DNA from: Paraburkholderia sprentiae WSM5005
Lineage (GTDB): Bacteria > Pseudomonadota > Gammaproteobacteria > Burkholderiales > Burkholderiaceae
Direction: 5' to 3'
DNA length: 64,000 nt
Assembly: GCF_001865575.2 (NCBI RefSeq)
Contig: NZ_CP017564.2
Location: forward strand, 26,988 to 90,987
Part shown: piece by piece, positions 7,960-37,192 of the stretch
How positions within the stretch are numbered: the stretch's first letter is position 1
Layout of the letters: every line of letters begins with the position of its first letter
Made by a program: the position numbers and the translations under genes
The notes under the pieces: generated by a model
What the model was told of the DNA's origin: nothing
Seen by the model: the letters and a program-made list of their open reading frames with translations, nothing else
Databases searched by the model: none

Positions 7960-7968
7960 GAGCGAAAG

Positions 7969-9891: not shown

Positions 9892-9920
9892 TCCGATCTT
9901 TTCTGATGAGGGATTTAAAA

Positions 9921-11582: not shown

Positions 11583-11652
11583 GCGCTATGAGTCGATATC
11601 TTTTTACTGTACTATTCTGCTATAGATAAATCACAGTATAAGGATTGTCACC

Positions 11653-25877: not shown

Positions 25878-25928
25878 TTGACACTGCCACGGATACGCCT
25901 ACAATGTACATGTCATGTCCATGTACAT
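25878..25928 (+). promoter_or_regulatory. Promoter with ATGTACATG operator
   Basis: -35 TTGACA (25878), 16-bp spacer, -10 TACAAT (25900). Directly downstream an inverted repeat ATGTACATG (25904-25912) / CATGTACAT (25920-25928) overlaps the transcription start. Likely autorepression by the ribbon-helix-helix protein encoded next. Confidence 0.75.
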
Positions 25929-25940
25929 AGGAGTAAAGAA

Positions 25941-26216
25941 ATGGCCACTGCAACGGATCGGATCGTGGTCCAGGTGACCCCGGTTCAGAAGCGGAGTATT
26001 GCGAGTACCGCGAAGCGCCTAGGAATTACCGTAAGCGAGTTGATGCGCCAAGCGGCGCAGGGCTTCACGCCGTCCGAGGATGAGCAGGACATGCATGCGC
26101 TGATCGCGCGCGTGAACGCGTCCACCAGTGAAGCGAACGAAGCGCTGGACGACGCGCTTGCGTTCGTCGCGGAGTCCAACAAACGAATCGCGGCGATGAC
26201 GGAAGGTAAGCACTGA
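25941..26216 (+). CDS. Ribbon-helix-helix DNA-binding protein
   Basis: 91 residues from ATG 25941 with AGGAG upstream. Residues 8-45 (RIVVQVTPVQKRSIASTAKR, then GITVSELMRQA) fit the Arc/MetJ-like fold. A C-terminal helix may oligomerise. Its promoter contains a strong palindrome, so autoregulation is likely. It heads the small-gene region and overlaps the next start (TGATG). Confidence 0.75.
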   Translation: MATATDRIVVQVTPVQKRSIASTAKRLGITVSELMRQAAQGFTPSEDEQDMHALIARVNASTSEANEALDDALAFVAESNKRIAAMTEGKH

Positions 26217-26410
26217 TGGGCGTCACAGACAAGGTGTGGGACGCGCTCACGACCGTTATCAAGATGAACGACAAGGTGGTGTCTCTGGCTGGCACCGTGA
26301 AAGAACAGCAGGCCAAGATTGAGGGCTTGACGGAGCGGGTTATTCGGCTCGAAGCAACGTTGGAACTCATGCTGCGTGCAGGCGGCGACACGAAAAAACT
26401 CCCGCGCTAA
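26216..26410 (+). CDS. Small coiled-coil protein
   Basis: 64 residues, translationally coupled to the RHH gene. One continuous heptad-like helix (VVSLAGTVKEQQAKIEGLTE onwards) suggests an oligomerisation partner for the RHH protein or membrane-associated spacer. No family recognised. Confidence 0.7.
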   Translation: MGVTDKVWDALTTVIKMNDKVVSLAGTVKEQQAKIEGLTERVIRLEATLELMLRAGGDTKKLPR

Positions 26411-26423
26411 CAGGAAAAGCGGC

Positions 26424-26753
26424 ATGGAACAGCACGAACTATTGTCGGTGATTGCTACGCTGGGATGCGCGTCGGTAGCTATCATCGGCGCAGCGCTCGC
26501 GGGATTCGCAGGCGCTCGCGCACGATCCGCCCGAACAGCCGACATGCGGAAGGCGTGGATGCTGGTTGCCATTCTAATTCTCGCGTCGGTCTTCGGACTT
26601 GCCCTTGGCTGCCTTGGCGTTCTGGGTCAGCGCGCGGTACCGGCGTTCAGTGGCGTTGCAATCTTTAGTTTCGCCTTGCTCGCGATGGTGAACGACCGGC
26701 TCCGTAGCTTCTTGGTCCGGGCCACTCGCGACGAAGGCGATGCGCGGCAGTAA
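26424..26753 (+). CDS. Small membrane protein
   Basis: 109 residues from ATG 26424, 4 nt after an AGGAAAAG element. Three hydrophobic segments (about 8-30, 45-65, 72-90) make it an inner-membrane protein. No family recognised. It is the first gene in the element-punctuated array. Confidence 0.7.
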   Translation: MEQHELLSVIATLGCASVAIIGAALAGFAGARARSARTADMRKAWMLVAILILASVFGLALGCLGVLGQRAVPAFSGVAIFSFALLAMVNDRLRSFLVRATRDEGDARQ

Positions 26754-26766
26754 CAACGGAAAACAA

Positions 26767-26952
26767 ATGGACAGCACGACGAACACACGCGCGCTCGATC
26801 TGACAGCGGGCCTCACCGATAAGCAATTGTCGCTGCATCCGTTTTGTGGAGCTTGCGGTTGGCGGAAGGGCGGTATCGACTCCTGGAGCGGCGGCGCTTG
26901 CAAGTGCGGTCACAGCGCACCGTCGTTTCGCGATTTACTCAAGCCACACTGA
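26767..26952 (+). CDS. Small zinc-ribbon-like protein
   Basis: 61 residues, ATG 2 nt after a CGGAAAAC element. FCGACGWRKGG and GACKCGHS provide four Cys in a CxxC...CxC arrangement, consistent with a single zinc knuckle. Function unknown. Confidence 0.7.
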   Translation: MDSTTNTRALDLTAGLTDKQLSLHPFCGACGWRKGGIDSWSGGACKCGHSAPSFRDLLKPH

Positions 26953-26975
26953 CCGCTGACGACAAGGAAAACATT

Positions 26976-27113
26976 GTGAACGTCGTAGAACTCACGCTTG
27001 AGCTAATCGCCATCGCCCTAGCCAGTTTTGCGCTTTGGGGACGGTGGTCGGTCAAACGGCAGAACAAACCGAAAGCCCATCGCAAAATGCAGCGCAATTG
27101 GCCTTGGGTCTGA
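26976..27113 (+). CDS. Single-helix membrane microprotein
   Basis: 45 residues from GTG 26976, 3 nt after an AGGAAAAC element. One membrane helix (LTLELIAIALASFALWG) followed by a strongly basic tail with Lys, Arg and Trp, implying N-out/C-in topology. Unrecognised. Confidence 0.6.
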   Translation: MNVVELTLELIAIALASFALWGRWSVKRQNKPKAHRKMQRNWPWV

Positions 27114-27135
27114 CACAACGGAAAACGTCGAAGCT

Positions 27136-27414
27136 ATGGAAGAATTCTTGTTAGGTCTCGTCGTAGGCGTAGTGCTTTGCGGCAGCGGACGCCGTTCGAG
27201 TCCCGGCATGCCGGTCTATGCGGCTGTCAATGGGTGGTTCAATCGACGCCGATACGCGAAACTTAGGATCAAGGCAGAGCGGCGTGGATTTAAGAGTCTG
27301 TTCGATGATGAGTACCGTCAATACGACCACATTCCGTTCGGATTGCAGAATCCAGCCTATTGCCTTCGGGCATTTCAGCGGGCACAGCTCCGGCGCAACG
27401 CCGACTCGGCGTAA
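27136..27414 (+). CDS. Small protein with N-terminal membrane segment
   Basis: 92 residues from ATG 27136, 9 nt after a CGGAAAAC element. A short hydrophobic N-terminus (FLLGLVVGVVLCGSG, with a possible lipobox cysteine) precedes a basic, aromatic soluble part. Unrecognised. Confidence 0.65.
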   Translation: MEEFLLGLVVGVVLCGSGRRSSPGMPVYAAVNGWFNRRRYAKLRIKAERRGFKSLFDDEYRQYDHIPFGLQNPAYCLRAFQRAQLRRNADSA

Positions 27415-27438
27415 CCACGGAAAACAAGGAGCATTGCT

Positions 27439-27852
27439 ATGAAGGTGAGAATCTCAACTGGGGCGTATGTCGCGGCGGCTGTTCTCGCGGCGTATGCCAG
27501 TTATGACCTCACGGTTGAAGTCGGCACCGCTTACCAGTTTGGCGCTGTGGCTCAAGCTTTGGGCGGTTTTGCGCTTTTCGCGGTTTTGACCGGAGCGCTG
27601 TGGACGACCGTCGCCCAAATCATGGCGTCGCTCGCGATTGAGCGGCAATATTCGTGGCCTGCGACCATCGTAAGAATCATCGGTCTATTGGGCGGAATCG
27701 TCGCTGCTTCGCTGGGCATGTGGAGTGTCTTGTACGGAACCGAATCGTGGAAAACGGTAGCCGAATTCGTTCTCGGTTTCCTCGGCGTCTACGCCTATGT
27801 GCACGCGTCCGTATTCGCTGCTGAGGCAACACCTGAAACATCGACTAGCTGA
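27439..27852 (+). CDS. Small four-helix membrane protein
   Basis: 137 residues from ATG 27439, with both a CGGAAAAC element and a separate AAGGAG in the leader. Four hydrophobic segments. Unrecognised; an integral inner-membrane protein. Confidence 0.7.
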   Translation: MKVRISTGAYVAAAVLAAYASYDLTVEVGTAYQFGAVAQALGGFALFAVLTGALWTTVAQIMASLAIERQYSWPATIVRIIGLLGGIVAASLGMWSVLYGTESWKTVAEFVLGFLGVYAYVHASVFAAEATPETSTS

Positions 27853-27870
27853 CGAATCGGAAAACTGGCT

Positions 27871-27915
27871 GTGAATCTACACACCATCCATACCCGTCAA
27901 CCATCGAAAAAATAG
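27871..27915 (+). CDS. 14-codon mini-gene in an array slot
   Basis: GTG 27871 lies 5 nt after a CGGAAAAC element and runs 14 codons (VNLHTIHTRQPSKK). The slot is preceded by the stop of the upstream gene, like its neighbours. It may be a leader peptide, a decayed gene or chance. Confidence 0.3.
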   Translation: MNLHTIHTRQPSKK

Positions 27916-27925
27916 GACTGAAAAA

Positions 27926-28180
27926 ATGCCTCCTGACTTTGGACACATGCTGTTCGTCTTCTTTGCCGTTCTGACTCCTGTAGTAGCCGTGTTTGTTTTG
28001 CTTTTCGTGCGAGAAAGCAAGCGAACGCCCAAGGAAACGTTTTTCCTGGGCGAATATGAAATTGACGCGCAAGCCGACCTGTCGGACGGTGCGTGGGTGC
28101 GAGTTAGGAAGAGCCAGGGAGACCGCAAATGGGGGCGAAAAATGGTCAAGATCATCGGCCAGCAGGTAACGTTTCTGTGA
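27926..28180 (+). CDS. Small membrane-anchored protein
   Basis: 84 residues from ATG 27926. One membrane helix (MLFVFFAVLTPVVAVFVLLF) then a soluble basic domain. Its leader has AGGACTGAAAAA, a poor version of the junction element, and the canonical copy lies before the 27871 mini-gene. Confidence 0.65.
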   Translation: MPPDFGHMLFVFFAVLTPVVAVFVLLFVRESKRTPKETFFLGEYEIDAQADLSDGAWVRVRKSQGDRKWGRKMVKIIGQQVTFL

Positions 28181-28243
28181 CTCGGAAAACATTGGCGCGA
28201 TTGCGCTCCGCGCGCTGGCCGGTAGCCAGCCGAGAACCGGCAA

Positions 28244-28504
28244 ATGAACAAGACACAAACTTTCGCTCCGACCGGCGCGGTCGACGTTAAGGCCGCTGAA
28301 TATGAAGCGCTCAAGCTCACCAACGACGAATATCTCAACCTGCTGTCGTGCGGGCATCCGGGCGGAACAATCTCTGTCGCACAGGCAGGCGCGCAGTTTG
28401 TCGTTGCGGGGGCAGATATGCGCCAGCTTCGCGACGCCTACACCGATGCTGACGCGGCGGCTTTGCTTGCGAATAGCAACGTCCGCTTTATCAAGCCTGA
28501 CTGA
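28244..28504 (+). CDS. Small soluble hypothetical protein
   Basis: 86 residues. The CGGAAAAC element directly after the upstream stop is 53 nt away, with a GC-rich inverted repeat between (GGCCGGTAGCCAGCC region), so the spacing differs from other slots. NDEYLNLLSCGHPGGTISVA and a helical end; unrecognised. Confidence 0.65.
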   Translation: MNKTQTFAPTGAVDVKAAEYEALKLTNDEYLNLLSCGHPGGTISVAQAGAQFVVAGADMRQLRDAYTDADAAALLANSNVRFIKPD

Positions 28505-28518
28505 TCGGAAAACAAGCG

Positions 28519-28812
28519 ATGAACAATCACCCACTCGACCAGACCATCGACAACGAGCGCGAGCGCTGGGCGGAGAATCTGTCGATTGCCTTCAGAACAC
28601 TGCGCAAGCATGGGTTTTACGTCATGCAAGACCCGGATGCCGCCAAGCAGAGCGACGATGCGCAGAAGCGCCAGTCGTTCGACGCTGCCTGTGTGTTGAT
28701 TGGGCTGCCGGCGACGCCTGAGAACGCTGGCCACCAGGTCGTACAGGCGCTTGGCCGTGAGCTTCTGGAAAACGCGGCCGTCGCTGCCGAGCGGCTAAGC
28801 GGTCGCCTCTAA
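28519..28812 (+). CDS. Small helical hypothetical protein
   Basis: 97 residues, ATG 5 nt after CGGAAAAC. Acidic, helical and soluble. Its last 11 codons and stop, plus the following junction element, form one copy of a 45-bp direct repeat whose second copy is at 31476-31520. Confidence 0.7.
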   Translation: MNNHPLDQTIDNERERWAENLSIAFRTLRKHGFYVMQDPDAAKQSDDAQKRQSFDAACVLIGLPATPENAGHQVVQALGRELLENAAVAAERLSGRL

Positions 28813-28824
28813 CGGGTCGGAAAA
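28780..28824 (+). repeat. 45-bp direct repeat, copy A
   Basis: Identical to 31476-31520. It covers the end of the 28519 gene, its TAA and the junction element up to GGAAAA; identity stops at the next base. Confidence 0.85.
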
Positions 28825-28828
28825 TAAA

Positions 28829-29029
28829 ATGCAAAGAATTTTTAAAGGGCGACACGCTGCGACGATTGCCGCCGCCGTACAGCAAACGAACGTTCAATGC
28901 TCCGTTGCAGAAGTCATCGTGCGGAAGGGGAAAAAGCGGGCTCGCCGGGTGGTGGTTGATGCGCCCGACACGACGATGGCGATCCTGCGGCTTTCTCTTT
29001 CGGATTCCAACCCTATCGGCGGCTGGTGA
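28829..29029 (+). CDS. Small basic hypothetical protein
   Basis: 66 residues, ATG 3 nt after CGGAAAAT. Strongly basic (VRKGKKRARRVVVDAPD), with a beta-rich look; nucleic-acid binding is possible. Unrecognised. Confidence 0.6.
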   Translation: MQRIFKGRHAATIAAAVQQTNVQCSVAEVIVRKGKKRARRVVVDAPDTTMAILRLSLSDSNPIGGW

Positions 29030-29074
29030 GTCGCCACGTGAAGGGAAATCCTCACCCCGGCAGGGAGAAAAGTA

Positions 29075-29425
29075 ATGTCGTTGGAGAAACTGGTTTTGGA
29101 AGTCGTTCGTGCTTTGGCACAAACAATCGAGTCGATAAACGGATGGCTGGCCGCTGGCGTCGGGTTAGATGGCGCGAACTATCGAACACTAACGACAGCG
29201 AGCAAGCTGGCGGATCGGATCGAGCACATTGCGCAATATGCGCTTGAGGGCGTGGACGACGCCGCACAGCGGCGATATCTGCGGGACGACATTGAATTTC
29301 TATCGGCTTTCCTAACCGAGTATCGAGACGCTATTTGCAAGGCGCGTCCGTGGCCGCTCCCTACAAATGACGGGCTCCGCATTCTGTTATCGGCGGCTGA
29401 ATCGCCGTCACTCACCGCACCGTAA
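29075..29425 (+). CDS. Helical hypothetical protein
   Basis: 116 residues from ATG 29075, preceded by CAGGGAGAAAAG rather than a canonical junction element. All-helical, soluble. Unrecognised. Confidence 0.65.
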   Translation: MSLEKLVLEVVRALAQTIESINGWLAAGVGLDGANYRTLTTASKLADRIEHIAQYALEGVDDAAQRRYLRDDIEFLSAFLTEYRDAICKARPWPLPTNDGLRILLSAAESPSLTAP

Positions 29426-29479
29426 GGTGCTACGGAAAACGGCGATGAAAGCACATGGCAACAACGGAAAACAAAAATC

Positions 29480-29677
29480 ATGGATGAAAAATACGTTGCC
29501 GGCGTTTTGACCGGCGTCGGCTGTACGGGAGCAGTTGCTTTCATCGTGTACGGCAACTGGCCGCTTGCCATCGCTTTGTTGGGCGTTTCGGCGCTGGGCA
29601 TGCTAGCAAATCGAGAAGCTACACGTCGCGATCTTTGGCTGAAAGCCATTTCGCGCACTCGCCGCCCGAAACTGTAG
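29480..29677 (+). CDS. Two-helix membrane protein
   Basis: 65 residues. Two hydrophobic segments, then a basic end. Two CGGAAAAC elements lie 32 bp apart just upstream (29433, 29465); the first has its own ATG at 29445 opening a 21-codon frame that overlaps this gene. That looks like a slot whose gene has been lost. Confidence 0.65.
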   Translation: MDEKYVAGVLTGVGCTGAVAFIVYGNWPLAIALLGVSALGMLANREATRRDLWLKAISRTRRPKL

Positions 29678-29737
29678 GAAAACAGCCGCTTGATGGATGC
29701 GCTCCCTGCCGTGGAGTGCATCCGTAAATCGACTCAC

Positions 29738-29759
29738 AGGCCGCTCGATGCGGCCTTTA
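29738..29759 (+). terminator. Hairpin terminator inside the array
   Basis: AGGCCGC-TCGAT-GCGGCCT followed by TT. It lies between the AGGAAAAC element at 29676 and the gene at 29774 and probably ends the first transcription unit of the array. Confidence 0.6.
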
Positions 29760-29773
29760 TCGCAGGTAAGCAG

Positions 29774-30004
29774 ATGGTTTCGAAGAAACAGGTTCCCCCC
29801 AACTACGACTACACCGGCAAGGATCGCGTGGAGCGACAGCGCAAGGCGCTGGCTGACGCGGGCGGTGGGCGCGTAGAGGCGCATCTGGACGCTGACGAAC
29901 TGGCGAAGCTCGATGCGTTGGTTGCAACCGGCGTGGCAGGCTCGCGGCGGGCCGCGTTGAAATACCTGGTGCAGCAGCTACCAGAGCCAGAAGAAAAGGC
30001 TTGA
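29774..30004 (+). CDS. RHH-like DNA-binding protein
   Basis: 76 residues from ATG 29774 (AGGTAAG upstream); an upstream ATG at 29693 would read through the hairpin. The C-terminal half (GRVEAHLDADELAKLDALVA, then GSRRAALKYLVQQL) fits a ribbon-helix-helix. Its stop codon overlaps the -35 of the next promoter, which has a perfect operator-like repeat. Confidence 0.65.
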   Translation: MVSKKQVPPNYDYTGKDRVERQRKALADAGGGRVEAHLDADELAKLDALVATGVAGSRRAALKYLVQQLPEPEEKA

Positions 30005-30028
30005 TACCGTAACCGGCTACGGTATAAT
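30001..30028 (+). promoter_or_regulatory. Internal array promoter with operator
   Basis: -35 TTGATA (30001-30006), 16-bp spacer, -10 TATAAT (30023-30028). The spacer is a perfect inverted repeat ATACCGTA-N6-TACGGTAT (30004-30025). Repression by the RHH protein encoded just upstream is a reasonable guess. Confidence 0.8.
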
Positions 30029-30077
30029 GTGGTTCATGGTCGGCGCACGGGTGCCGATAACCCGAAGGGGAGTGACG

Positions 30078-30308
30078 ATGCAAACGCGATATTTCGGAGA
30101 AACGAAGGCGCTCGGCTTCGATGGAAAGTGGTATCCCGACGAAGAAGAATTGCATAACGCTATCGTGCAAGCGGAATGGGCAAATGGGATTCTCGCCGGG
30201 CCTGACACCGTGTGGCCCAATGGTCGCCATTCTCACGAAGCGGCTCAAACGACGCTCGATGAATCGCTGGACACGCTCTGCGCCCACGAATTCTTCTTCG
30301 CAATCTAA
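30078..30308 (+). CDS. Small hypothetical protein
   Basis: 76 residues from ATG 30078, with AGGGGAG upstream in place of the junction element. Acidic and aromatic (FGETKALGFDGKWYPDEEEL). It is the first gene after the 30001 promoter. Unrecognised. A GCCCGC-TTCG-GCGGGC hairpin (30316-30331) follows its stop. Confidence 0.65.
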   Translation: MQTRYFGETKALGFDGKWYPDEEELHNAIVQAEWANGILAGPDTVWPNGRHSHEAAQTTLDESLDTLCAHEFFFAI

Positions 30309-30384
30309 CTACAGCGCCCGCTTCGGCGGGCATCGGAAAACGCTCACGCGGGTCGCGTGGGCCAGACATAAACGCGGAGAAAGA

Positions 30385-30675
30385 ATGGACGCCATGTATG
30401 CCGCTGACGCGGACCTTAAAGCGGCTGTGCCTGCGGCCGTGCGACGCCACCGGGCCGCTGGAACCCTCACGTGGGCGCTGATTCATAAGATCGAGGCGGA
30501 AGTCCTCGATGAAGTAGCGGCCACGGGAAAACACAGCGCTCGAATGCTCGGAATGCTGCGGGCGTCGCCCGCGATGGGCTATCCCAAAGACGACCGGCCG
30601 GTCTCGCTTGAGGGACACGAGGTTGTTCCCACGGTGTTTGGCGCGATCTACGCCGAGTGGAACCGCTTCAATTGA
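30385..30675 (+). CDS. Small helical hypothetical protein
   Basis: 96 residues from ATG 30385 with CGGAGAAAG as ribosome site. The canonical CGGAAAAC is 43 nt upstream, right after the hairpin at 30316. Ala/Arg-rich, helical. Unrecognised. Confidence 0.65.
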   Translation: MDAMYAADADLKAAVPAAVRRHRAAGTLTWALIHKIEAEVLDEVAATGKHSARMLGMLRASPAMGYPKDDRPVSLEGHEVVPTVFGAIYAEWNRFN

Positions 30676-30689
30676 CGACGGAAAACGAC

Positions 30690-30890
30690 ATGCCGCGCAC
30701 GACAAAATCAATTGACGACTGGAAGTGCCCTTGGTGCAAGCAACACAATCGCTTTGAAAGCGCAGCCGCAGGAGCGTGCGCCGAAGGTGATCTGTCCGGT
30801 TTTGTCGATCAGGTTACATGTCCGTCGTGTGGAAAGGATTCGATGGTTTCGTTGAGCATCGAATTCCGTGCCGAAGCCGTCACCGATTGA
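30690..30890 (+). CDS. Zinc-ribbon protein
   Basis: 66 residues, ATG 3 nt after CGGAAAAC. CPWCKQHNRFE and CPSCGKDSM give two CxxC pairs, a classical zinc ribbon with a beta-rich middle. May bind nucleic acid or protein; function unknown. Confidence 0.75.
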   Translation: MPRTTKSIDDWKCPWCKQHNRFESAAAGACAEGDLSGFVDQVTCPSCGKDSMVSLSIEFRAEAVTD

Positions 30891-30905
30891 CCAAGGAAAA
30901 CTGCG

Positions 30906-31163
30906 ATGAAGAAGCAAATCTTCGGCCGAAAGGTCGGCTCCGCGAATGACATGGTTCTCCTGATCGAGAGCGATGGAGTCTCGACAGGCGAGAAGTCGGT
31001 CGGGCCTGGCGTCCTTGACGAATTCGCCGTCGCGAGTGCCCACCGCAGCGTGCAAGCGCTCCGTGAGAACAACATCGAGGGTTATGTTGTGTTCGAAGGC
31101 GACCCGACCCGGTACGAATTCACGCCCGAAGCGGATTTTATGTATCCCGCGCGCGTCCACTAG
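30906..31163 (+). CDS. Small beta-rich hypothetical protein
   Basis: 85 residues, ATG 4 nt after AGGAAAAC. Alternating strands and one central helix; no motif recognised. Its own stop is followed at once by the next AGGAAAAC (31162), which overlaps the TAG. Confidence 0.65.
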   Translation: MKKQIFGRKVGSANDMVLLIESDGVSTGEKSVGPGVLDEFAVASAHRSVQALRENNIEGYVVFEGDPTRYEFTPEADFMYPARVH

Positions 31164-31229
31164 GAAAACTCTCCGTGCAGCGGGCGGTTACTGTCCGGCG
31201 CACGGTGCATAGAAAAACAGGAGAGATAG

Positions 31230-31430
31230 ATGACACCAACATACAAAGCACAGACGTGCCGGATCGTATCGGCTCTCGCCGCAGGTTCACTTGCTGGGGG
31301 ATTGTCGCTTGACGGGTTGGGTTTGCCTGCTCCGGTCGCCAGTACCATCGGCGGATCGGTGTCCGCAGCCATGTTCATGAGCGCTCGCGTTCACGCGTTC
31401 TGGCATCGCCAGTTCGGCATTGGCGCGTGA
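31230..31430 (+). CDS. Small membrane protein
   Basis: 66 residues from ATG 31230 with AGGAGAG. A Gly/Ala-rich hydrophobic core of two short segments (LAAGSLAGGLSL; PVASTIGGSVSAAMFM). The canonical element is 60 nt upstream. Unrecognised. Confidence 0.6.
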   Translation: MTPTYKAQTCRIVSALAAGSLAGGLSLDGLGLPAPVASTIGGSVSAAMFMSARVHAFWHRQFGIGA

Positions 31431-31463
31431 CGCGGCAAGCCCTATTTTGAATCGGAAAACATC

Positions 31464-31508
31464 GTGAACAAAATGGTCGCTGCCGAGCGGCTAAGCGGTC
31501 GCCTCTAA
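31464..31508 (+). pseudogene. 14-codon remnant carrying the tail of the 28519 gene
   Basis: GTG 31464 sits 3 nt after a CGGAAAAC element. After four unique codons (V-N-K-M) it is identical to the end of the 28519 gene, in the same reading frame. It is best read as an array slot whose gene has been deleted to a start and a tail. Confidence 0.65.
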
Positions 31509-31520
31509 CGGGTCGGAAAA
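31476..31520 (+). repeat. 45-bp direct repeat, copy B
   Basis: Identical to 28780-28824. The two copies are 2.7 kb apart, so homologous recombination between them would delete or invert-swap nothing but the intervening ten genes as one block. Confidence 0.85.
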
Positions 31521-31526
31521 CAGGAA

Positions 31527-31691
31527 ATGCGCGACATGCAAAGCAGCGAGCATAGAGTAGTTAAAGGTGTCATCGTCGCCACTGTGGTGATGCTCGTCGT
31601 AATGGGCGTGACGGACGTCGAGACGTATTCTTGGTTGAAGTCGCTCGCGAGCAATGCGTACAACGCAGCGAACCGTGCGTGGCACATGTAA
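31527..31691 (+). CDS. Single-helix membrane microprotein
   Basis: 54 residues, ATG 5 nt after CGGAAAAC. One membrane helix (VIVATVVMLVVMGV) between a short charged start and a periplasmic-looking end. Unrecognised. Confidence 0.65.
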   Translation: MRDMQSSEHRVVKGVIVATVVMLVVMGVTDVETYSWLKSLASNAYNAANRAWHM

Positions 31692-31708
31692 TGGGTCGGA
31701 AAACGGGA

Positions 31709-31921
31709 ATGAACATGAATATGCCCAAGAAGGTTGGCGCAGTGATGATGGCCGCAGGCGCAGTGGGATTCGCCTGCATTAGCGAAGTTGCAACGGCGCA
31801 CTACGAGGCATTGCCCGCTCCCGATCCGACCGCCATATTAGCCCTCAAAGGTGTCTGTCTCGTAACCTTTCTTGCGGGGATTTCCGGGCTCGCGTTTGGT
31901 ATCAGCAGCAGCAACGGTTGA
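31709..31921 (+). CDS. Two-helix membrane protein
   Basis: 70 residues, ATG 4 nt after CGGAAAAC. Two hydrophobic segments with a polar loop of about 20 residues. Possible lipobox-like GFACIS in the first helix. Unrecognised. Confidence 0.65.
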   Translation: MNMNMPKKVGAVMMAAGAVGFACISEVATAHYEALPAPDPTAILALKGVCLVTFLAGISGLAFGISSSNG

Positions 31922-31933
31922 ATCGGAAAAGAC

Positions 31934-32203
31934 ATGGGTAAGCGTCTCGAATTGAGGATTGTCGCTCAATCGGAAGATGACTTCGATGAGTTGTGCGATC
32001 AGGCGGAAGCGCTTTCCGGCGTGACGCTGAGGGCACGAAGGGCAAACAAAGAATTCGCGGGGAGGTTGGTCATCGGGTATCGATACGACGATTCGACCCT
32101 TGAGGTGACGTTCGAACTTGATGCCGACGTCGCCACTATGTTGGATCTCTCGATCAATGGCCGGGAAACGTTGTCGGCCATCGAAGGCTTGACGCAGCAT
32201 TAA
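31934..32203 (+). CDS. Small soluble hypothetical protein
   Basis: 89 residues, ATG 2 nt after CGGAAAAG. Alternating strands and acidic helices (SEDDFDELCDQAEALSG). Unrecognised. Confidence 0.65.
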   Translation: MGKRLELRIVAQSEDDFDELCDQAEALSGVTLRARRANKEFAGRLVIGYRYDDSTLEVTFELDADVATMLDLSINGRETLSAIEGLTQH

Positions 32204-32224
32204 CTCGGAAAACGAGGACAAAAG

Positions 32225-32542
32225 ATGCTTGACCTGATTTTGCTCATAGTCGCCGTGCCAGCGGTCATCGTCTGGATCATCGTGAAAATGATCGAGGACA
32301 TTCGCAAGGTGTTCGGCTACTGGATTTTTCCGGCTGCGTTGTCGCTTTACGGCGCTGTCCTGCTGTTCATCGCTGGCCCCGCTGCGCCCGATGCCGCCTT
32401 TGAGTCGATTTTCAATGCGCTGTCCGAGTGCGCCATCTTAGGCATGCGATTGCCGCTGTGGTTGCTCATCATTGGCGTTGCCTTGCTGGTTATCGGCGCA
32501 GGCTTGAGGCAGAGCCGACGCAGCAGCGCACGCGCCAACTAA
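32225..32542 (+). CDS. Three-helix membrane protein
   Basis: 105 residues, preceded by CGGAAAAC and GAGGA. Three hydrophobic segments and an Arg/Ser-rich end. Unrecognised. Confidence 0.65.
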   Translation: MLDLILLIVAVPAVIVWIIVKMIEDIRKVFGYWIFPAALSLYGAVLLFIAGPAAPDAAFESIFNALSECAILGMRLPLWLLIIGVALLVIGAGLRQSRRSSARAN

Positions 32543-32567
32543 CAACGGAAAACTGAAGGGCAGCGCC

Positions 32568-32942
32568 ATGACGCTTTATACCTATGTGAGCGACGCCCGC
32601 GACGAGCGTTACTCGCGTCCGCTACCAAATGGCGACGCTCCATACTTCGTCCTGTTGGAAACCGACGTACCGCCGCAAGAGATTCAAATTCGCAGGTTGA
32701 TGGCGGCGGTCGGTGTTTTCGAGGGGATCAAGCGTGGGTTCTCATTCGCTCACCGGCTCTTTGGTGGCTCTGAAGAGTATCGCGAGAACGAGAAGCGTCT
32801 CGATGCAGCGCTCGCGGAATTGCTCTCTGTCGCCAGATCGACGCCTGAACATACGGCGGCTTTGCGTCGCGTGCTGAATGCGGAGCTGGAGCGCGGCACC
32901 AGTCTCTGTCATTCCCTCGCCAATCTTGCTGAAAAGGCATAG
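32568..32942 (+). CDS. Helical hypothetical protein
   Basis: 124 residues, ATG 14 nt after CGGAAAAC. Soluble, helical with charged ends (SEEYRENEKRLDAALAELLS). Unrecognised; its TAG is followed directly by the next element. Confidence 0.65.
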   Translation: MTLYTYVSDARDERYSRPLPNGDAPYFVLLETDVPPQEIQIRRLMAAVGVFEGIKRGFSFAHRLFGGSEEYRENEKRLDAALAELLSVARSTPEHTAALRRVLNAELERGTSLCHSLANLAEKA

Positions 32943-32953
32943 GAAAACTCTTC

Positions 32954-33070
32954 ATGCGGAACGCGCAGAGTCACCTGATTTATCAACTCGTGGACGGTGC
33001 CGCGATTGTGTCGTGCGCGGCTATCGTGGCTCTTTTCATCGTCGGGCGCAAAGACGCGCTAATGACATAG
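32954..33070 (+). CDS. Single-helix membrane microprotein
   Basis: 38 residues, ATG 5 nt after AGGAAAAC. One hydrophobic helix (AAIVSCAAIVALFIVG), then GRKDALMT. Too short for usual gene callers, but it fits the slot pattern exactly. Confidence 0.55.
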   Translation: MRNAQSHLIYQLVDGAAIVSCAAIVALFIVGRKDALMT

Positions 33071-33105
33071 CGGGAAACCAGACGAACTTAAACAGGAAGG
33101 GAAAA

Positions 33106-33423
33106 GTGGCAGACAAAGAACTGAACCTGCGCGCGTGTATCGGTGCTTTCGCAGATGAGGATGGCAAGGCCGCCGTGGACATTCACGCGCTCGACGTGCT
33201 GAATAGGAACGAAGACCTACTCCATCTGCTGATCGCTACTGGAATCTCATTTACCCGTCCCGCCGACGATTTGATCGGCGCTGAAGCTGGCATGCAGGAG
33301 CCGCCGATTGTAGAGCGGATAGCTCAAGGTGATGTGCTTGCGACGGCGCGACGTGTCGCGGCGAGAGTCGCCGCCAGTTGGGTCACTGACGAAGACGTGG
33401 CACGGTTCAGCGCATCCGTCTAG
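33106..33423 (+). CDS. Helical hypothetical protein
   Basis: 105 residues from GTG 33106 with AGGAAGGG upstream; CGGGAAAC at 33071 may be a degenerate junction element. Acidic, helical, soluble. Unrecognised. Confidence 0.65.
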   Translation: MADKELNLRACIGAFADEDGKAAVDIHALDVLNRNEDLLHLLIATGISFTRPADDLIGAEAGMQEPPIVERIAQGDVLATARRVAARVAASWVTDEDVARFSASV

Positions 33424-33484
33424 TCATCGGAAAACACCGGATAGGTCGGCATAGCGAAAATAGCGAACGCCCTGAGAGGATTAT

Positions 33485-33667
33485 ATGCACGTTGACAAGC
33501 CGAAAGATGAACCCTCCTTCATTGAAGGGCGCGAGTCGTTCGAGGCTGACCGAGAGATTACCGACAACCCATACCCGGAGACGAGCATTGACTTCGAACT
33601 GTGGCGAAACGGATGGCTGGCGGCAAGCTTCGAGCTACTTGAGCGCCAACGACAAGAAAAAAATTGA
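33485..33667 (+). CDS. Small acidic hypothetical protein
   Basis: 60 residues from ATG 33485 with GAGAGGA upstream. Acidic with Trp (FELWRNGWLAASFELLERQR). The canonical element is 50 nt upstream. Unrecognised. Confidence 0.6.
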   Translation: MHVDKPKDEPSFIEGRESFEADREITDNPYPETSIDFELWRNGWLAASFELLERQRQEKN

Positions 33668-33709
33668 TTCGCGGCAAATGTGGCGCACTGTTGCGTGACA
33701 AGGAAAACA

Positions 33710-33934
33710 ATGAGCTATCAAAAGCGCTGGTCATATGCCCAAGTCACTCGCGAAGCGGAATCCGAAATCACACGCCTTATGCAACAAGAGACCGCGAACT
33801 CCGACGAGAGGCATTTGCTCACATGCATGGCGATGGGCGCTTTTGCTATGTGGGACCATCTGACAAGCGGATGGCAGAACGCAGGCGACCGTGAGCGCTT
33901 GCAGGCACTGTATCGACCCAGCGAGAGGGCATAG
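33710..33934 (+). CDS. Small helical hypothetical protein
   Basis: 74 residues, ATG 1 nt after AGGAAAAC. Helical, with CMAMGAFAMWDH as a mildly hydrophobic centre. Unrecognised. Confidence 0.6.
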   Translation: MSYQKRWSYAQVTREAESEITRLMQQETANSDERHLLTCMAMGAFAMWDHLTSGWQNAGDRERLQALYRPSERA

Positions 33935-33937
33935 AGA

Positions 33938-34156
33938 ATGAAGAACCAAAATGAAGGTGCGGGCTTTTTGCCAGGCTGGACGGTGCTCCTGTCTCTGGCG
34001 GGATGCGCGGCTGCTCTTGCGATTCTATGGACATGTCGAAGCGCGGGCTTGTCGTGGTGGGTTGGCGTGCCGGTAGCGGTAGCGGTAGTGGTCGGTGGCG
34101 TCTTTTTGGAGCGTGCCATCGAACGTAAATACTTGCCGTCAAGGCGTAACGATTGA
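33938..34156 (+). CDS. Two-helix membrane protein
   Basis: 72 residues from ATG 33938, with GAGAGGG inside the end of the preceding gene as ribosome site and no canonical element. Two hydrophobic segments and a basic end. Unrecognised. Confidence 0.65.
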   Translation: MKNQNEGAGFLPGWTVLLSLAGCAAALAILWTCRSAGLSWWVGVPVAVAVVVGGVFLERAIERKYLPSRRND

Positions 34157-34170
34157 CCTCGGAAAATGAC

Positions 34171-34359
34171 GTGGCGGCAAAAAAGCAAATACTTCCGCGT
34201 GGATACACCGTGGAGCATCAGGAACCGGTGACTCCGTTTGGTAATCCGTGGGTGATCCGCTTCAACAGCGAGCGAGTCGGTAGCGCGCCCACGAAAGCCG
34301 CTGCGTTGAAGCTTGCAAGCGAAGACGCGAAGAGTCGCAAGACGAAACATTCAAAGTAA
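34171..34359 (+). CDS. Small basic hypothetical protein
   Basis: 62 residues from GTG 34171, 3 nt after CGGAAAAT. Basic, Lys-rich C-terminus; the middle (PFGNPWVIRFNSERVGSAPT) then KAAALKLA resembles a short beta-beta-alpha fold. A TTG at 34153 in frame would place the element inside the gene. Confidence 0.6.
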   Translation: MAAKKQILPRGYTVEHQEPVTPFGNPWVIRFNSERVGSAPTKAAALKLASEDAKSRKTKHSK

Positions 34360-34368
34360 TCGGAAAAT

Positions 34369-34608
34369 ATGAAAACTCCCACGCAAAAAATGCAAACCGT
34401 TTGTCTTTGGGTTTTTGGCCTCTCTGGACTAGTTTTTGTCCCTTCAATGTTTATTGATATGGGACGCGGCAACGGCGGCTTCGACAATCTATCTTTCTCC
34501 ATCGCTACGATAGTGAGCTGCGCGGTGGGCGCAACGGCCCTTCTTTGCCTGGGCATGGCTGTCGAGCGAGAAAAAGCCGCGAAATACGACCACGGAAAAT
34601 CGACATGA
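34369..34608 (+). CDS. Two-helix membrane protein
   Basis: 79 residues; ATG directly follows CGGAAAAT. Two hydrophobic segments and a charged tail. Its last codons contain the next element (34593), showing the element is kept even where it must be coding. Confidence 0.65.
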   Translation: MKTPTQKMQTVCLWVFGLSGLVFVPSMFIDMGRGNGGFDNLSFSIATIVSCAVGATALLCLGMAVEREKAAKYDHGKST

Positions 34609-34862
34609 GCAACAAGTTACCCGCCCAGGATCGGAAGTGGACTATCAAAGAGTGCCTTTCCATCCTATTGCTTATCGCGTCGGCTGCGGCAAGCGTCCTT
34701 TGCCTATTGGTCGGCGCGCTTCGCCTGCTGGAAATCCATTCGTTTATTGACCGACTGTTGCCCGACTGGCCGGGGTTGGTGCTAGTCGTTGTGGCTTGTG
34801 TCGGCATGTGGGGCTGGCCCCGTATGAACGAAAGCCTGAAATCGTGCGCATGGAAAGAATAG
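34605..34862 (+). CDS. Two-helix membrane protein
   Basis: 85 residues from ATG 34605, overlapping the previous stop by 4 bp and 4 nt after CGGAAAAT. Two hydrophobic segments and Trp-rich end (CVGMWGWPRMN). Unrecognised. Confidence 0.65.
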   Translation: MSNKLPAQDRKWTIKECLSILLLIASAAASVLCLLVGALRLLEIHSFIDRLLPDWPGLVLVVVACVGMWGWPRMNESLKSCAWKE

Positions 34863-34894
34863 CTAGAGGGAACGGAAAACAAGGAGAAAGCACG

Positions 34895-35143
34895 ATGCCC
34901 GAGCTTTTCAAAAACAACGAACGGCTTGCCGAGGCCGAAACTGCGATTCGCGCGGTTGAGCCGACTGCAGCTGCTGTGGTGTCCGCCGTTCGCAGCTTTG
35001 CGCTTCCCGAACTCGGAATTGAAAGTGCGCTGTTCGCGCAGCTCGCCGATGGTTCTGAGTGGCGCATTGAAGCGCAGTCGGTGCGCCGGATGACGGCCGG
35101 CGAGATTGCTGAACGAAATCGTTCGCGCGAATCGTTTCTGTGA
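34895..35143 (+). CDS. Small helical hypothetical protein
   Basis: 82 residues with both CGGAAAAC and AAGGAG upstream. Helical start and a short beta segment (ADGSEWRIEAQSVRRMTAGE). Unrecognised. Confidence 0.65.
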   Translation: MPELFKNNERLAEAETAIRAVEPTAAAVVSAVRSFALPELGIESALFAQLADGSEWRIEAQSVRRMTAGEIAERNRSRESFL

Positions 35144-35161
35144 CGGATAGGAAAACACGAA

Positions 35162-35674
35162 ATGCCTAATGATTGGCTAATTTCAGCGATCCGAGACGAC
35201 TTCTACTACGCAGAGCACCAGCTTCCGAAGCCGGGTTTCACTGAGCCAAAAGTCAAACTCGATCTATCAGAGAGTCAGCTTGACGATGCTATTCGTGCGT
35301 TGTTCAGACGCAGTAGAGCGAAACGTCGACAGTGTGCAGTATCCACGCAGACGGCAACAGTCGAGCTATCTGTTATCACAGGTGCGAAACTGGAAGTGGT
35401 CTGGCCTGCCTGGACGGCAATCAAAGATGCATTGGCTCGTGGTCAGGAGGCGGTTCCAATCCTCGTTCTGTTTGATGATGCGACGGCAGATGGAGCGGTC
35501 TCGCTCCTTAATGTCCACTTGAGCTACGAGCTAAAGAGTGCGGCAGGCAGCGGTGGATTCGCACTATTCCCGAGCCTATCAGGACGGGGCGGCGGCGAAT
35601 TCGCCGTGGGCGTCAATTGGCATCTCTGGAAGGCAATCAGCAGCAGGAGCGCTGAGACACAGGAAAACAGATGA
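35162..35674 (+). CDS. Larger hypothetical protein of the array
   Basis: 170 residues, ATG 5 nt after AGGAAAAC. Mixed alpha/beta, soluble. It contains the next element near its end (35661). Unrecognised. Confidence 0.65.
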   Translation: MPNDWLISAIRDDFYYAEHQLPKPGFTEPKVKLDLSESQLDDAIRALFRRSRAKRRQCAVSTQTATVELSVITGAKLEVVWPAWTAIKDALARGQEAVPILVLFDDATADGAVSLLNVHLSYELKSAAGSGGFALFPSLSGRGGGEFAVGVNWHLWKAISSRSAETQENR

Positions 35675-35859
35675 GCGACGCGAAGGGCTGGATCGTAAAG
35701 ACGTTCGACGGGCAGTATCTTTGCCCTCGGGACGGCGACGTTAGTACTACTTCTGTCATGACTGAAGCGGGCGTATTCAAACACTATGGCGAGGCGTACG
35801 AAACCGCCGGTGAACACTGCGATCCGGGTTTCGTGGTTGTTCCGGCGCACTCGATTTAA
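35671..35859 (+). CDS. Small hypothetical protein
   Basis: 62 residues, overlapping the previous gene by 4 bp; ATG 2 nt after AGGAAAAC. Compact beta-rich sequence with WIVKTFDGQYLCPRDG. Unrecognised. Confidence 0.65.
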   Translation: MSDAKGWIVKTFDGQYLCPRDGDVSTTSVMTEAGVFKHYGEAYETAGEHCDPGFVVVPAHSI

Positions 35860-35892
35860 CCGCGCGACTCGAACATTTCACCAAGGAGAAAC

Positions 35893-36246
35893 ATGAAACA
35901 CATGAAACTGAAACAGGCGGTAATCGTATTGGCAGTCGCTCTCGTGGCTGCATCGCCGGCAGTGGCACAGCAGCAGGCAAGCGACCAATGTGAACAGAAC
36001 CCTGCATATCGCCACGGCCTCCAGAAGTATGTCAAAGGCGATTTCCAAGGTACGCTCGCAGACGTTCAACCACTAGCCGACGACGGGGACGCCTGCGGCC
36101 AGTGGTTGCTCGGACAGATGTACAACTTCGGCCAAGGGGTGCCCAAAGACCATTCCAAGTTTGTCGAGTTAGTCGGAAAGTCAGCCGCGCAGGGTTACAG
36201 CAAAGCTCGCGGACAAGCCTATGCGATGGGCTTGAACACGAAATAG
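35893..36246 (+). CDS. Exported Sel1-repeat-like protein
   Basis: 117 residues with AAGGAG. Signal peptide (VIVLAVALVAASPAVAQ, cleavage near 25). The mature part has a Sel1/TPR-like unit: GDACGQWLLGQMYNFGQGVP followed by AAQGYSKARGQA. Periplasmic, possibly a protein-interaction module. It is the only clearly exported member of the array. Confidence 0.75.
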   Translation: MKHMKLKQAVIVLAVALVAASPAVAQQQASDQCEQNPAYRHGLQKYVKGDFQGTLADVQPLADDGDACGQWLLGQMYNFGQGVPKDHSKFVELVGKSAAQGYSKARGQAYAMGLNTK

Positions 36247-36260
36247 GGCGGTTTCTGATT

Positions 36261-36294
36261 GCTCCGCGCCCCGTCATCAAACGGCGCGCGGAGC
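36261..36294 (+). terminator. Hairpin after the Sel1-like gene
   Basis: GCTCCG...CGGAGC arms with GC-rich inner pairing and one bulge; no T-run. A weak terminator or 3'-stabilising hairpin. Confidence 0.45.
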
Positions 36295-36313
36295 TTCGAA
36301 TCTAGGTGGACCA

Positions 36314-36523
36314 ATGAGTTCGACAACTATCAGCGATGGCCTCGCGGCCTTTTTCCAATGGCTCAACGCCGTTAATGGCATCTCATTAATCGCTCTTTTC
36401 GTCTCGGTTTTCAGCCTGCTGAGCGCCTGGAGAACCCGTCGCTGGGTAAAGCGTGGATTGCGTCAAAATAGCGACTGGAGAGGCGCAGTGTATAACCCAA
36501 AACAGTTCCGTTCTCGTAGGTAA
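36314..36523 (+). CDS. Single-helix membrane protein
   Basis: 69 residues from ATG 36314. One membrane segment (ISLIALFVSVFSLLSAW) and a strongly basic tail. AGGTGGA serves as ribosome site; no canonical element. Unrecognised. Confidence 0.6.
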   Translation: MSSTTISDGLAAFFQWLNAVNGISLIALFVSVFSLLSAWRTRRWVKRGLRQNSDWRGAVYNPKQFRSRR

Positions 36524-36533
36524 CCTGCTCAAG

Positions 36534-36878
36534 ATGAACACTAACTGTTCGGCATTGATGCAACAGGAAAACGACAAGCGTGCGGCCTTGCTCCTCGTTC
36601 TCGTGATTGGCCTGATGTTGTTGCAAATCATCGCCCTTGGCGCGATCGCCGTCGCTCGGGCGCACGAAGGCGCGTGGATTCGCGCTGCTGTTGCAACCGT
36701 TCCGGCAGTGCTGGCGATCGGTGCAAGCGTCAAGGCACTCGTGCGATCGTCTGGCGATCATGAGGGCACATTCAAGATTGCCGGCGTCGGGTTTCTAGCG
36801 TGGTCGGCCGGCGCCGCATTGCAGGCGGTCGCGATCGTGGCCGCGCCCGCTGTCGCGCAGTGGTTCGCCCACTTCTGA
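36534..36878 (+). CDS. Three-helix membrane protein
   Basis: 114 residues from ATG 36534. Three hydrophobic segments. Codons 11-13 contain an AGGAAAAC (36565), so the true start might instead be a TTG just after it (36588). Last gene at the edge of the array. Confidence 0.6.
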   Translation: MNTNCSALMQQENDKRAALLLVLVIGLMLLQIIALGAIAVARAHEGAWIRAAVATVPAVLAIGASVKALVRSSGDHEGTFKIAGVGFLAWSAGAALQAVAIVAAPAVAQWFAHF

Positions 36879-36991
36879 CTTGTGCCGTGGCTGGGCGATT
36901 TCGCGGGCCGGTTCTTCGGGGACGCGTCATCTGGACCGGACCAGCGCTTTTTGGCATACTAGAACAAACACATTCCGTTTCGGGTGTCAAG

Positions 36992-37192
36992 ATGGTACGG
37001 GTCAACGACTATCCGCAATTGCGCTTCATCGCATGGAATCGTCCGGGCGACGATGTTCTTAGCGATGCGGACGCGTTTGCGCTTTATGAGCGCAACTGGC
37101 GCTTTGTCGATCAGCGCGCGCTTGATCCTCACGAGCGCGCGCTGATTGAACGACTTACCAATGACGTGGGGCACGGGCACTTGCATGTTTAA
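36992..37192 (+). CDS. Small protein paired with an AbiEii-type enzyme
   Basis: 66 residues from ATG 36992. The pattern YPQLRFIAWNR ... ALYERNWRFVD ... LDPHERALIERL recurs, from memory, directly upstream of nucleotidyltransferase genes on proteobacterial plasmids, so an antitoxin or partner role is possible. The partner gene starts inside its last codons. Confidence 0.65.
   Translation: MVRVNDYPQLRFIAWNRPGDDVLSDADAFALYERNWRFVDQRALDPHERALIERLTNDVGHGHLHV

Follow-up and report, generated by a model that had tools for sequence, protein, structure and literature searches.

A one-strand array of small genes

The DNA analyzed here is a stretch of 64,000 nucleotides (nt) from Paraburkholderia sprentiae WSM5005 (hereafter the window; bases 26988-90987 of the 90,987-base contig C4), in which a run of small genes on the + strand carries one short element, (C/A)GGAAAA(C/T/G), at its gene junctions. 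C4 is most likely a plasmid capable of conjugation or mobilization, as it encodes ParA, ParB, a type IV secretion system (T4SS) coupling protein and a MobA/VirD2-type relaxase. Within 26412-36572, 32 copies of the element lie on the + strand and none on the - strand, in agreement with an earlier annotation made from the sequence alone (the initial annotation), which had described about 32 one-strand junctions with a conserved element. Across the window, the narrower form MGGAAAAY occurred 36 times against 9.04 expected (standard deviation 3.07), a count reached by 0 of 100 shuffles, and the enrichment implied by that annotation is thus present; 30 of the 36 copies sit on the + strand at 26757-36572, and allowing G at the last position added those at 26412 and 31924 to give the 32 elements.

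The array follows a head made up of a palindromic, putatively operator-like sequence (25903..25929), a 91-amino-acid (aa) ribbon-helix-helix, NikA-like gene (25941..26216, + strand; PF21983, E 2.2e-6) and an open reading frame (ORF) for a helical-looking protein of 64 aa (26216..26410, + strand); the pair at 25941-26410 recurs in other genomes, also without an array. Behind it, on the same strand, the elements found by motif count read AGGAAAAG at 26412..26419 (element 1), CGGAAAAG at 31924..31931 (element 20, with G at the last position) and CGGAAAAT at 28818..28825, 34160..34167, 34361..34368 and 34593..34600 (elements 9, 26, 27 and 28). The form AGGAAAAC occupies 26965..26972, 29676..29683, 30894..30901, 31162..31169, 32941..32948, 33701..33708, 35149..35156, 35661..35668 and 36565..36572 (elements 3, 12, 15, 16, 23, 25, 30, 31 and 32), and CGGAAAAC occupies 26757..26764, 27119..27126, 27418..27425, 27858..27865, 28183..28190 and 28506..28513 (elements 2 and 4-8), 29433..29440, 29465..29472, 30334..30341 and 30679..30686 (elements 10, 11, 13 and 14), 31453..31460, 31514..31521 and 31697..31704 (elements 17-19), and 32206..32213, 32546..32553, 33428..33435 and 34873..34880 (elements 21, 22, 24 and 29).

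We then related the elements to gene ends by a mechanical rule. An open-frame end (at least 30 codons) lies no more than 8 nt before 26 of the 32 window elements, and an ORF start (at least 35 codons) no more than 15 nt after 26 of the 32. The TAG stops at 29676, 31162 and 32941 overlap their elements, elements 34593 and 35661 lie inside the end of the previous gene (ORFs 34369-34608 and 35162-35674), as the initial annotation had noticed, and elements 30334 and 36565 lie 25 nt and 41 nt past a stop, respectively. For the elements at 27858, 28183, 29433, 30334 and 33428 the nearest ORF start is 39-60 nt off (60 nt for 27858, 53 nt for 28183, across a hairpin-like spacer, and 49 nt for 33428), while 31453 has none within 60 nt; the start distance thus ranges over 0-60 nt in 31 of the 32 elements, and the position relative to the start codon is not fixed.

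The same relation was found in array zones from many genomes, where an open-frame end fell within -4 to 8 nt at 288 of 439 elements, compared to 37 of 436 in a shifted control, and the next start fell within -2 to 15 nt at 279 of 439, compared to 140 of 436. The element is therefore more tightly linked to the stop that precedes it than to the start that follows, so that the two positions initially assigned to it, behind one gene and before the next, both hold, with the tie to the stop being the stronger. These zones, which were picked by one-strand runs, contained 439 elements on the array strand and 10 on the opposite strand. Outside arrays, among 1210 mechanical ORFs of at least 200 aa, an element followed the stop in 10 and occurred in the 25 nt before the start in 10; the 8-mer is thus not equally common before starts elsewhere, and the equal frequency that the initial annotation had named as speaking against its proposal is not observed. 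Over the whole genome (7.84 Mb, both strands) the 8-mer occurs 1056 times and a backwards-read control pattern 372 times; the count of 1056 is not above dinucleotide composition because the shuffle value scaled up gives about 1100. Within the array, 45 nt at 28780-28824 and 31476-31520 are identical and comprise one gene's end plus its core.

Ends of homology in related genomes

When the 10.7-kb array was searched by BLAST in 144 genomes of the genus, 36 of them, one being its own, had matches. The 43 foreign matches were each one or two genes long. An element stood at the left end of 8 and at the right end of 17, and 22 of the 43 had an element at one end or more and 3 at both; since two candidates were scored per genome, these match counts are lower bounds. 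Examples are matches at 4895-5170, 4680-4901 and 4675-4902 (query coordinates), with elements at 4680, 4895 and 5163. In window terms, matches begin at the first base of element 5 (genome G048), elements 7 and 14 (both G074) and element 15 (G050), and at the second base of element 1 (G035); they stop at the last base of element 13 (G118 and G138), element 15 (G138) and element 16 (G050), and 2 nt beyond elements 9 (G118) and 26 (G032). The surroundings of the matches contained 31 runs of at least five elements in which four elements stood behind an open-frame end; the 31 include two duplicate records, later dropped, and the second run of locus L130 is part of the L048 stretch.

To more quantitatively assess where homology ends, we compared array zones, here defined as runs of at least four elements. 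Inside them, 54 of 132 homology ends lay at an element in both partners (left 21/60, right 33/72), compared to a mean of 0.02 and a maximum of 2 in 500 draws in which the elements were shifted by 20-150 nt, some events in the 54/132 being entered repeatedly since L048 and L130 overlap. Gene exchange bounded by the element, which the initial annotation had expected between related plasmids, is therefore seen. Among 1471 homology ends, GGAAAA was the top 6-mer (130, plus 71 as its reverse complement) and the best non-overlapping 6-mer reached 14, in a census of loci chosen through array cassettes, in both orientations and with queries of at least four elements, rather than in a blind genome survey. 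A systematic search for present/absent blocks gave 25 candidate junctions, one of which had the core, with the remaining 24 unclassified.

Two further observations were made in these loci. A 334-bp near-identical repeat (98.5%; G035 contig C9 and L130) has one copy in the array and one just before it, and its ends lie off the elements. The zinc-ribbon cassette described below is frameshifted at L060:10146-10344 and matched only partly in L064, so some array cassettes are decaying.

The crossover at base resolution

The bases at the ends of homology show where the switch between partners falls. Among Burkholderiaceae left ends (n = 30), element position 0 was common to both partners in a fraction of 0.33 and position 7 in 0.73, while among right ends (n = 73) position 0 was common in 0.92, position 7 in 0.48 and position 8 in 0.21. 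In this family, then, the base preceding the core mostly goes with the gene upstream, and the one following it with the gene downstream; because the ends were picked for lying at the element, the figures add only where the switch falls. A direct example comes from contig C9 of G035, which holds two copies of about 98% identity on one contig, one arranged as A-B-C-D and the other as A-D. The A-D joint is a single CGGAAAAT whose left side comes from A and whose right side comes from D, and the parental borders share only GGAAAAT, far shorter than the identity that RecA-type recombination generally needs.

Plasmids of Pseudomonas aeruginosa gave a comparable picture. Five of them (L230 and L232-L235) have flanks that are 97.8-100% identical and cassettes that differ, and 21 of 21 ends inside the array lay at GGAAA in both partners, although these ends are partly non-independent; one 297-bp stretch is 100% identical in two places. 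With the joint in G035 and the homology ends in Paraburkholderia, these breakpoints support the initial proposal of a gene-capture array in which swaps run from element to element. The Pseudomonas core is AGGAAANC, with A in a fraction of 0.85 and C in 0.87 of 60 distinct junctions that were picked for GGAAA behind an open-frame end. Base N agreed in 8 of 11 pairs of P. aeruginosa plasmid junctions with a common upstream unit and in 4 of 18 with a common downstream unit. Base N therefore moves mainly together with the unit upstream of it, and the crossover most likely falls between N and the following base, that is, between GGAAAN and C. A crossover 3' of N would make the core part of the cassette's 3' end, behind the stop codon, and this placement agrees with the tight stop-codon tie (288/439 compared to 37/436).

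A tyrosine recombinase upstream of many arrays

Clustering of ORFs of at least 130 aa from 26 array loci, several of which stop before the array head, gave one family that was present in 12 loci, always upstream of the array and in the same orientation; tblastn added a recombinase in L048 and, partly, in L060. The protein, a tyrosine recombinase, has about 220-230 aa, consists of a catalytic domain alone and is Xer-like. Its scores against the families that it matches are well short of their curated cut-offs, and the solved structures matched by sequence include XerC-like, XerD, XerA, XerH and IntI4 proteins. Type I members have the Arg, HxxR, LGH and Tyr, and a second type (type II, examples being those of L188, L189, L192, L009, L064, L048 and L232) is taken up below.

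For a reverse test, a protein search supplied 34 new recombinase loci, and elements were counted within 7 kb of 33 of them; several of these 33 are fragments, and three (G093, G112 and G124) had already shown a cassette match. Downstream on the same strand, the element density was 0.75/kb at 18 type I loci and 0.72/kb at 15 type II loci, about five times the 0.14/kb found upstream of the recombinase for both types, and the opposite strand had 0.10-0.25/kb. An annotated toxin-antitoxin pair (HigBA, MazEF or ChpB, VapBC, or RelE with a partner) stood between recombinase and array in 12 of 27 annotated recombinase-bearing records (L009 and L210-L235), representing 8 distinct platforms. When L147 was compared with L162, the platform of recombinase and toxin-antitoxin pair was 93% identical up to the first element and unrelated beyond. 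Several arrays are flanked by a three-gene cluster that encodes a longer tyrosine recombinase, a small hypothetical protein and a 3'-5' exonuclease; it lies at the far end of the array in L009 (26795-29944) and L147 (10522-13662) and beyond the head in L064 (12721-15847).

Of 398 genomes of the family, 35, which belong to 7 of 25 genera, contain relatives of the type I recombinase. So do 129 of 72,556 plasmid records, including 59 of Burkholderia, 25 of Pseudomonas, 13 of Aeromonas and 7 of Vibrio. All 21 plasmid records examined have at least three small, mostly hypothetical same-strand genes behind the recombinase; in Vibrio the run starts after two opposite-strand genes. Counted in hand-chosen stretches as array strand/other strand, GGAAAA occurred 13/2 times in Aeromonas hydrophila, 12/0 in Vibrio harveyi, 9/1 in Halomonas, 9/0 in Pseudomonas syringae, 13/3 in Cupriavidus, 9/2 in Azonexus, 6/1 in Burkholderia glumae, 12/4 and 6/3 in two Paraburkholderia plasmids, and 4/0 in P. 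aeruginosa pSE5419-1. The layout of a recombinase followed by an array thus recurs in Beta- and Gammaproteobacteria.

A model of cassette exchange and its alternatives

Together, these results make it very probable, as far as sequence comparison can tell, that the array consists of mobile gene cassettes that are gained, lost and shuffled between GGAAAN cores, with the linked short tyrosine recombinase as the putative enzyme. A cassette would be a small, seemingly promoterless gene (sometimes two or three, and rarely a gene-less hairpin) that ends in GGAAAN just past its stop codon, and recombination from core to core, with the crossover 3' of N, would lead to cassette gain, loss and shuffling. 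The units, their breakpoints, the position of the crossover and the tie between recombinase and array can be read from the comparisons; that the short tyrosine recombinase encoded upstream of many arrays catalyzes the swaps is what we infer from them. In the window plasmid the recombinase would have acted in trans or been lost later, and cassettes would circulate. A single promoter at the head, which is here the NikA-like pair and elsewhere often a toxin-antitoxin pair, may drive the whole array. The GGA of the core may also serve the following gene as a weak ribosome-binding site, and expression would then continue past each insertion.

Several observations weigh against this model of cassette exchange. 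In Paraburkholderia, 78 of the 132 homology ends miss an element, a number that includes fading homology as well as genuine exceptions, and where plasmids PGU16 and 22B1P differ over 3 kb, the breaks lie about 100-140 nt from elements. Since elements sit at gene junctions, part of the coincidence is expected under any gene-wise exchange. When L229 and L231 were added to the P. aeruginosa comparison, 53 of 64 ends lay at the core and 11 elsewhere, and the changes in L230 and L235 extend past the array to core-free places before the recombinase gene and at its end. Some genera have few cores despite a recombinase (GGAAAA 3/1 in Stutzerimonas, 2/2 in Polaromonas and 1/0 in Acidovorax). No array-type short recombinase was found beside the window array or elsewhere on its plasmid in searches with types I and II, and the own genome yielded only a weak match on C3 and, at G000 C5:125857-126081, a truncated type I recombinase that covers query residues 1-75. 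Finally, many array-linked recombinases are of type II, in which the catalytic Tyr, His and first Arg have been lost. L232, a P. aeruginosa array that changed recently, carries a type II-like enzyme, and a different enzyme must therefore be at work in it. Type II should be unable to cut, yet it stands at arrays that clearly change; the activity would come in trans from type I, XerCD or a further recombinase, or type II would be a partner protein.

These last observations bear on a rival explanation in which the cassettes are moved by host XerCD or another recombinase in trans and the linked short recombinase, above all type II, is a regulator or site-binding partner. The type II frames are intact in those aligned and, although the catalytic residues are missing, are under purifying selection, with ratios of nonsynonymous to synonymous substitution (dN/dS) of 0.06, 0.09, 0.18 and 0.13 in four pairs (the fourth with a dS of 2.5, near saturation) and no value in a fifth, which, with the type II-like enzyme of L232, favors such a role. 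Type I, however, has the full catalytic set and is tied to arrays at like density and layout, and we regard this explanation as rather unlikely, though it deserves serious consideration. A different account, in which the element is a plasmid-type ribosome-binding site (GGA plus an A-rich tract) that merely fills the intergenic gap while whole genes are swapped by illegitimate or homologous recombination, appears improbable to us. GGA can pair with 16S rRNA and serve as a weak Shine-Dalgarno sequence when the start is near, and 26 of the 32 window elements do have a start within 15 nt. This account does not explain the six window elements whose nearest start is at least 39 nt off, the stronger tie to the stop, or the matching recombinase family upstream. 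Moreover, breakpoints lie at the element even where it is 17-25 nt past the stop (30334 and the A unit of L048) or about 20 nt before the start (the D unit of L048), and base N is mostly kept with the upstream gene. A translation signal, which the initial annotation had offered as an alternative to gene capture, would thus be at most a second role of the element: its GGA may act as a weak Shine-Dalgarno sequence, but six elements lie far from starts and the breakpoints follow the element. An element of Shine-Dalgarno type only was likewise rejected on the variable start distance and the stop within 8 nt in 26 of 32 elements.

We also considered a divergent integron, with an IntI-type integrase and degenerate attC sites. 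The logic is alike, in that an integrase precedes one-strand promoterless cassettes with a site at their 3' end (439 elements compared to 10, and N mostly with the upstream unit), and weak profile matches to integron integrase exist. Yet on TIGR02249 three array recombinases scored 37.5 and 52.3 (type I) and 24.8 bits (type II) against a cut-off of 265. An attC core pair (RYYYAAC...GTTRRRY) was found within 70 nt of 0 of the 32 elements by regular expression, which is not the published covariance model, and the core GGAAAN differs from GTTRRRY. Nor is there clear excess folding at the sites, the z value being -0.67 at the site plus 45 nt upstream compared to -0.47 mid-cassette. By both tested defining features, integrase and attC, the system is not an integron, although it works like one, and we consider a divergent integron highly improbable.

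An orphan array on the window plasmid

Viewed as a product of cassette exchange, the window array is in our reading an orphan array, akin to the CALIN described for integrons, which are cassette clusters without an integron. A 415-aa integrase at 45464-46711 matches the array recombinase family only weakly (32.7% over 52 aa). A relative of a cassette (C5:122720) lies about 3 kb from the truncated type I recombinase on C5. Plasmid pBVB_1 of Burkholderia vietnamiensis (L236) has a backbone that is partly like the window plasmid (helicase gene 75%, relaxase gene 73%) and an array of its own behind a Phd/VapC pair, with 19 GGAAAA on the array strand of 6.7 kb and 0 on the other strand; 16 of the 19 are of the form [CA]GGAAAA, and the preceding 34.5 kb holds 13 GGAAAA. 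The 41 kb of pBVB_1 examined contained no recombinase of the array family, its DNA had no match to the window array (E up to 1e-4), and comparison with 16 window proteins gave one weak match of 21 residues. An Rfam search of 24000-38000 (E up to 1) gave no match, nor did the array match phage records at the DNA level. In IMG/VR, no relative of the zinc-ribbon cassette was found, and the 96-aa cassette protein has three distant relatives without arrays.

Relation to known systems

Like the arrays described here, integrons have a tyrosine recombinase and, behind it, small and mostly unknown genes in one orientation that appear to be promoterless; the two also share a site at the 3' end, unit-wise shuffling, toxin-antitoxin and defense-type genes, and recombinase-less arrays (CALIN) (PMC8618304). 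In contrast, the recombinase here is short, Xer-like, has the catalytic domain only and is not IntI; the core is GGAAAN, without attC core pairs or a clear hairpin; a toxin-antitoxin pair often stands between recombinase and array; and many linked recombinases are degenerate. A shufflon or other invertible array was rejected on the strand counts, 32 to 0 in the window and 439 to 10 in the zones.

The initial annotation had named the start-associated sequences of cluster K mycobacteriophages as the nearest parallel. These are likewise short asymmetric repeats, mainly in one orientation, that stand before many unrelated genes and include a portion of a Shine-Dalgarno sequence, and the likeness holds for the short one-orientation repeat. 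The cluster K sequence, however, is a start-tied 13-bp GGGATAGGAGCCC with 11-19 copies per phage, whereas the core here, MGGAAAA, is tied more to the stop and forms part of the upstream gene's 3' end; the sections of the cluster K article examined describe no cassette exchange at the repeat (PMC3203893). Recombinases in Trio (RIT), whose trios occur in alpha- and betaproteobacteria, and other plasmid tyrosine recombinase families resemble the present family as plasmid-borne enzymes of proteobacteria whose role is unclear. Recombinase families, pairs and trios have been described for them, but no downstream cassette array is mentioned in the sections of that article examined (PMC3414803).

Mosaic genomes of lambdoid phages recombine at short, conserved boundary or linker sequences at gene junctions; no dedicated recombinase and no array of one repeated core are known for those linkers. 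In the open-access literature, among the titles and abstract openings listed, we found no description of the system reported here. Integrons are the well-known bacterial collectors of single-gene cassettes in an ordered array; should the arrays described here be independent of them, with a different enzyme and a core of 6 bp, they would form the second system of this kind. With somewhat less assurance than for cassette exchange itself, we think it probable that the arrays represent such a second natural cassette-capture system, with an enzyme subfamily and a site unrelated to integrons, spread across Beta- and Gammaproteobacterial plasmids and islands. It would build operons of tiny genes joined at GGAAAN and would combine a short Xer-like recombinase, a toxin-antitoxin pair as stabilizer and promoter, GGAAAN as both recombination core and ribosome-binding site, and dead type II recombinases as control or docking subunits. 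If true, this would account for the unknown tiny genes that stand in long runs on Pseudomonas, Burkholderiales, Aeromonas and Vibrio plasmids, make the arrays a reservoir of novel small proteins and provide a case of a recombination site that doubles as a translation signal.

Cassette contents and other features

The 35 ORFs checked in the window array encode proteins of 38-170 aa, as small as the initial annotation had described; a membrane-type stretch, which it had counted among the prevailing features, was found in 14 of the 35 by a simple hydropathy rule, and by the same rule in 96 of 283 cassette proteins. All window ORFs listed here lie on the + strand, those called membrane-type being so assigned by hydropathy. 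The array opens with ORFs of 109 aa (26424..26753, membrane-type, present as an 89% cassette in L048), 61 aa (26767..26952, with four Cys), 45 aa (26976..27113, membrane-type), 92 aa (27136..27414), 137 aa (27439..27852, membrane-type), 84 aa (27926..28180, membrane-type) and 86 aa (28244..28504), followed by one of 97 aa (28519..28812), whose 3' end and core form the repeat at 28780-28824 and 31476-31520 and which has a homologue in the array of Paraburkholderia sp. D15. A two-ORF unit (28829..29425; ORFs 28829-29029 and 29075-29425), an ORF of 65 aa (29480..29677, membrane-type) and another two-ORF unit (29690..30308; ORFs 29690-30004 and 30027-30308) come next, the second part of the latter having an 88% copy on the D15 plasmid that stops at an element. 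The 96-aa ORF at 30385..30675 is present in many genomes, the 66-aa ORF at 30690..30890 is zinc-ribbon-like (Cys pairs) and has genome matches, and the 85-aa ORF at 30906..31163 has a 94% copy in G050 with elements at both borders.

Farther along lie ORFs of 66 aa (31230..31430), 54 aa (31527..31691, membrane-type), 70 aa (31709..31921, membrane-type), 89 aa (31934..32203), 105 aa (32225..32542, membrane-type) and 124 aa (32568..32942), a two-ORF unit at 32954..33423 (32954-33070, membrane-type, and 33106-33423), an ORF of 60 aa (33485..33667) and a two-ORF unit at 33710..34156 (33710-33934 and 33938-34156, the latter membrane-type). The array ends with ORFs of 62 aa (34171..34359), 79 aa (34369..34608, membrane-type), 85 aa (34605..34862, membrane-type), 82 aa (34895..35143) and 170 aa (35162..35674) and with a last unit of three ORFs at 35671..36523 (35671-35859, 35893-36246 and 36314-36523, the last two membrane-type). 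Gene-less units, which are short hairpin-forming stretches between two cores or behind one and apparently fall into at least three recurring sequence types, were seen in L009, L048, L055, L060, L061, L063, L151, L162 and L167 and in the window at 28183-28243 and 30334-30384.

A hand-picked set of 149 cassette-region proteins, which includes a few from units without an element of their own, matched only 18 Pfam families at E up to 1e-4, and each of these, with one exception, was matched by a single protein. Abi_alpha, AbiTii, Abi_C, HNH and a transposase are among the families, and several matches are to families of abortive infection or other defense types. PADLOC matches in the cargo include AbiTii, AbiJ and the candidate systems PDC-S47 and PDC-S57. 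Elsewhere on the window plasmid, a KfrB domain (PF18790) was found near the C-terminus of 8 of 20 scanned plasmid proteins that are otherwise unrelated, among them KorA-like, LPD7 and DUF5710 proteins, the T4SS coupling protein, a methylase-helicase, an AbiEii toxin and the relaxase, encoded in the regions 5899-14172, 16861-23046, 37146-38174 and 49165-51360. The domain may be a shared tag, for example for transfer.

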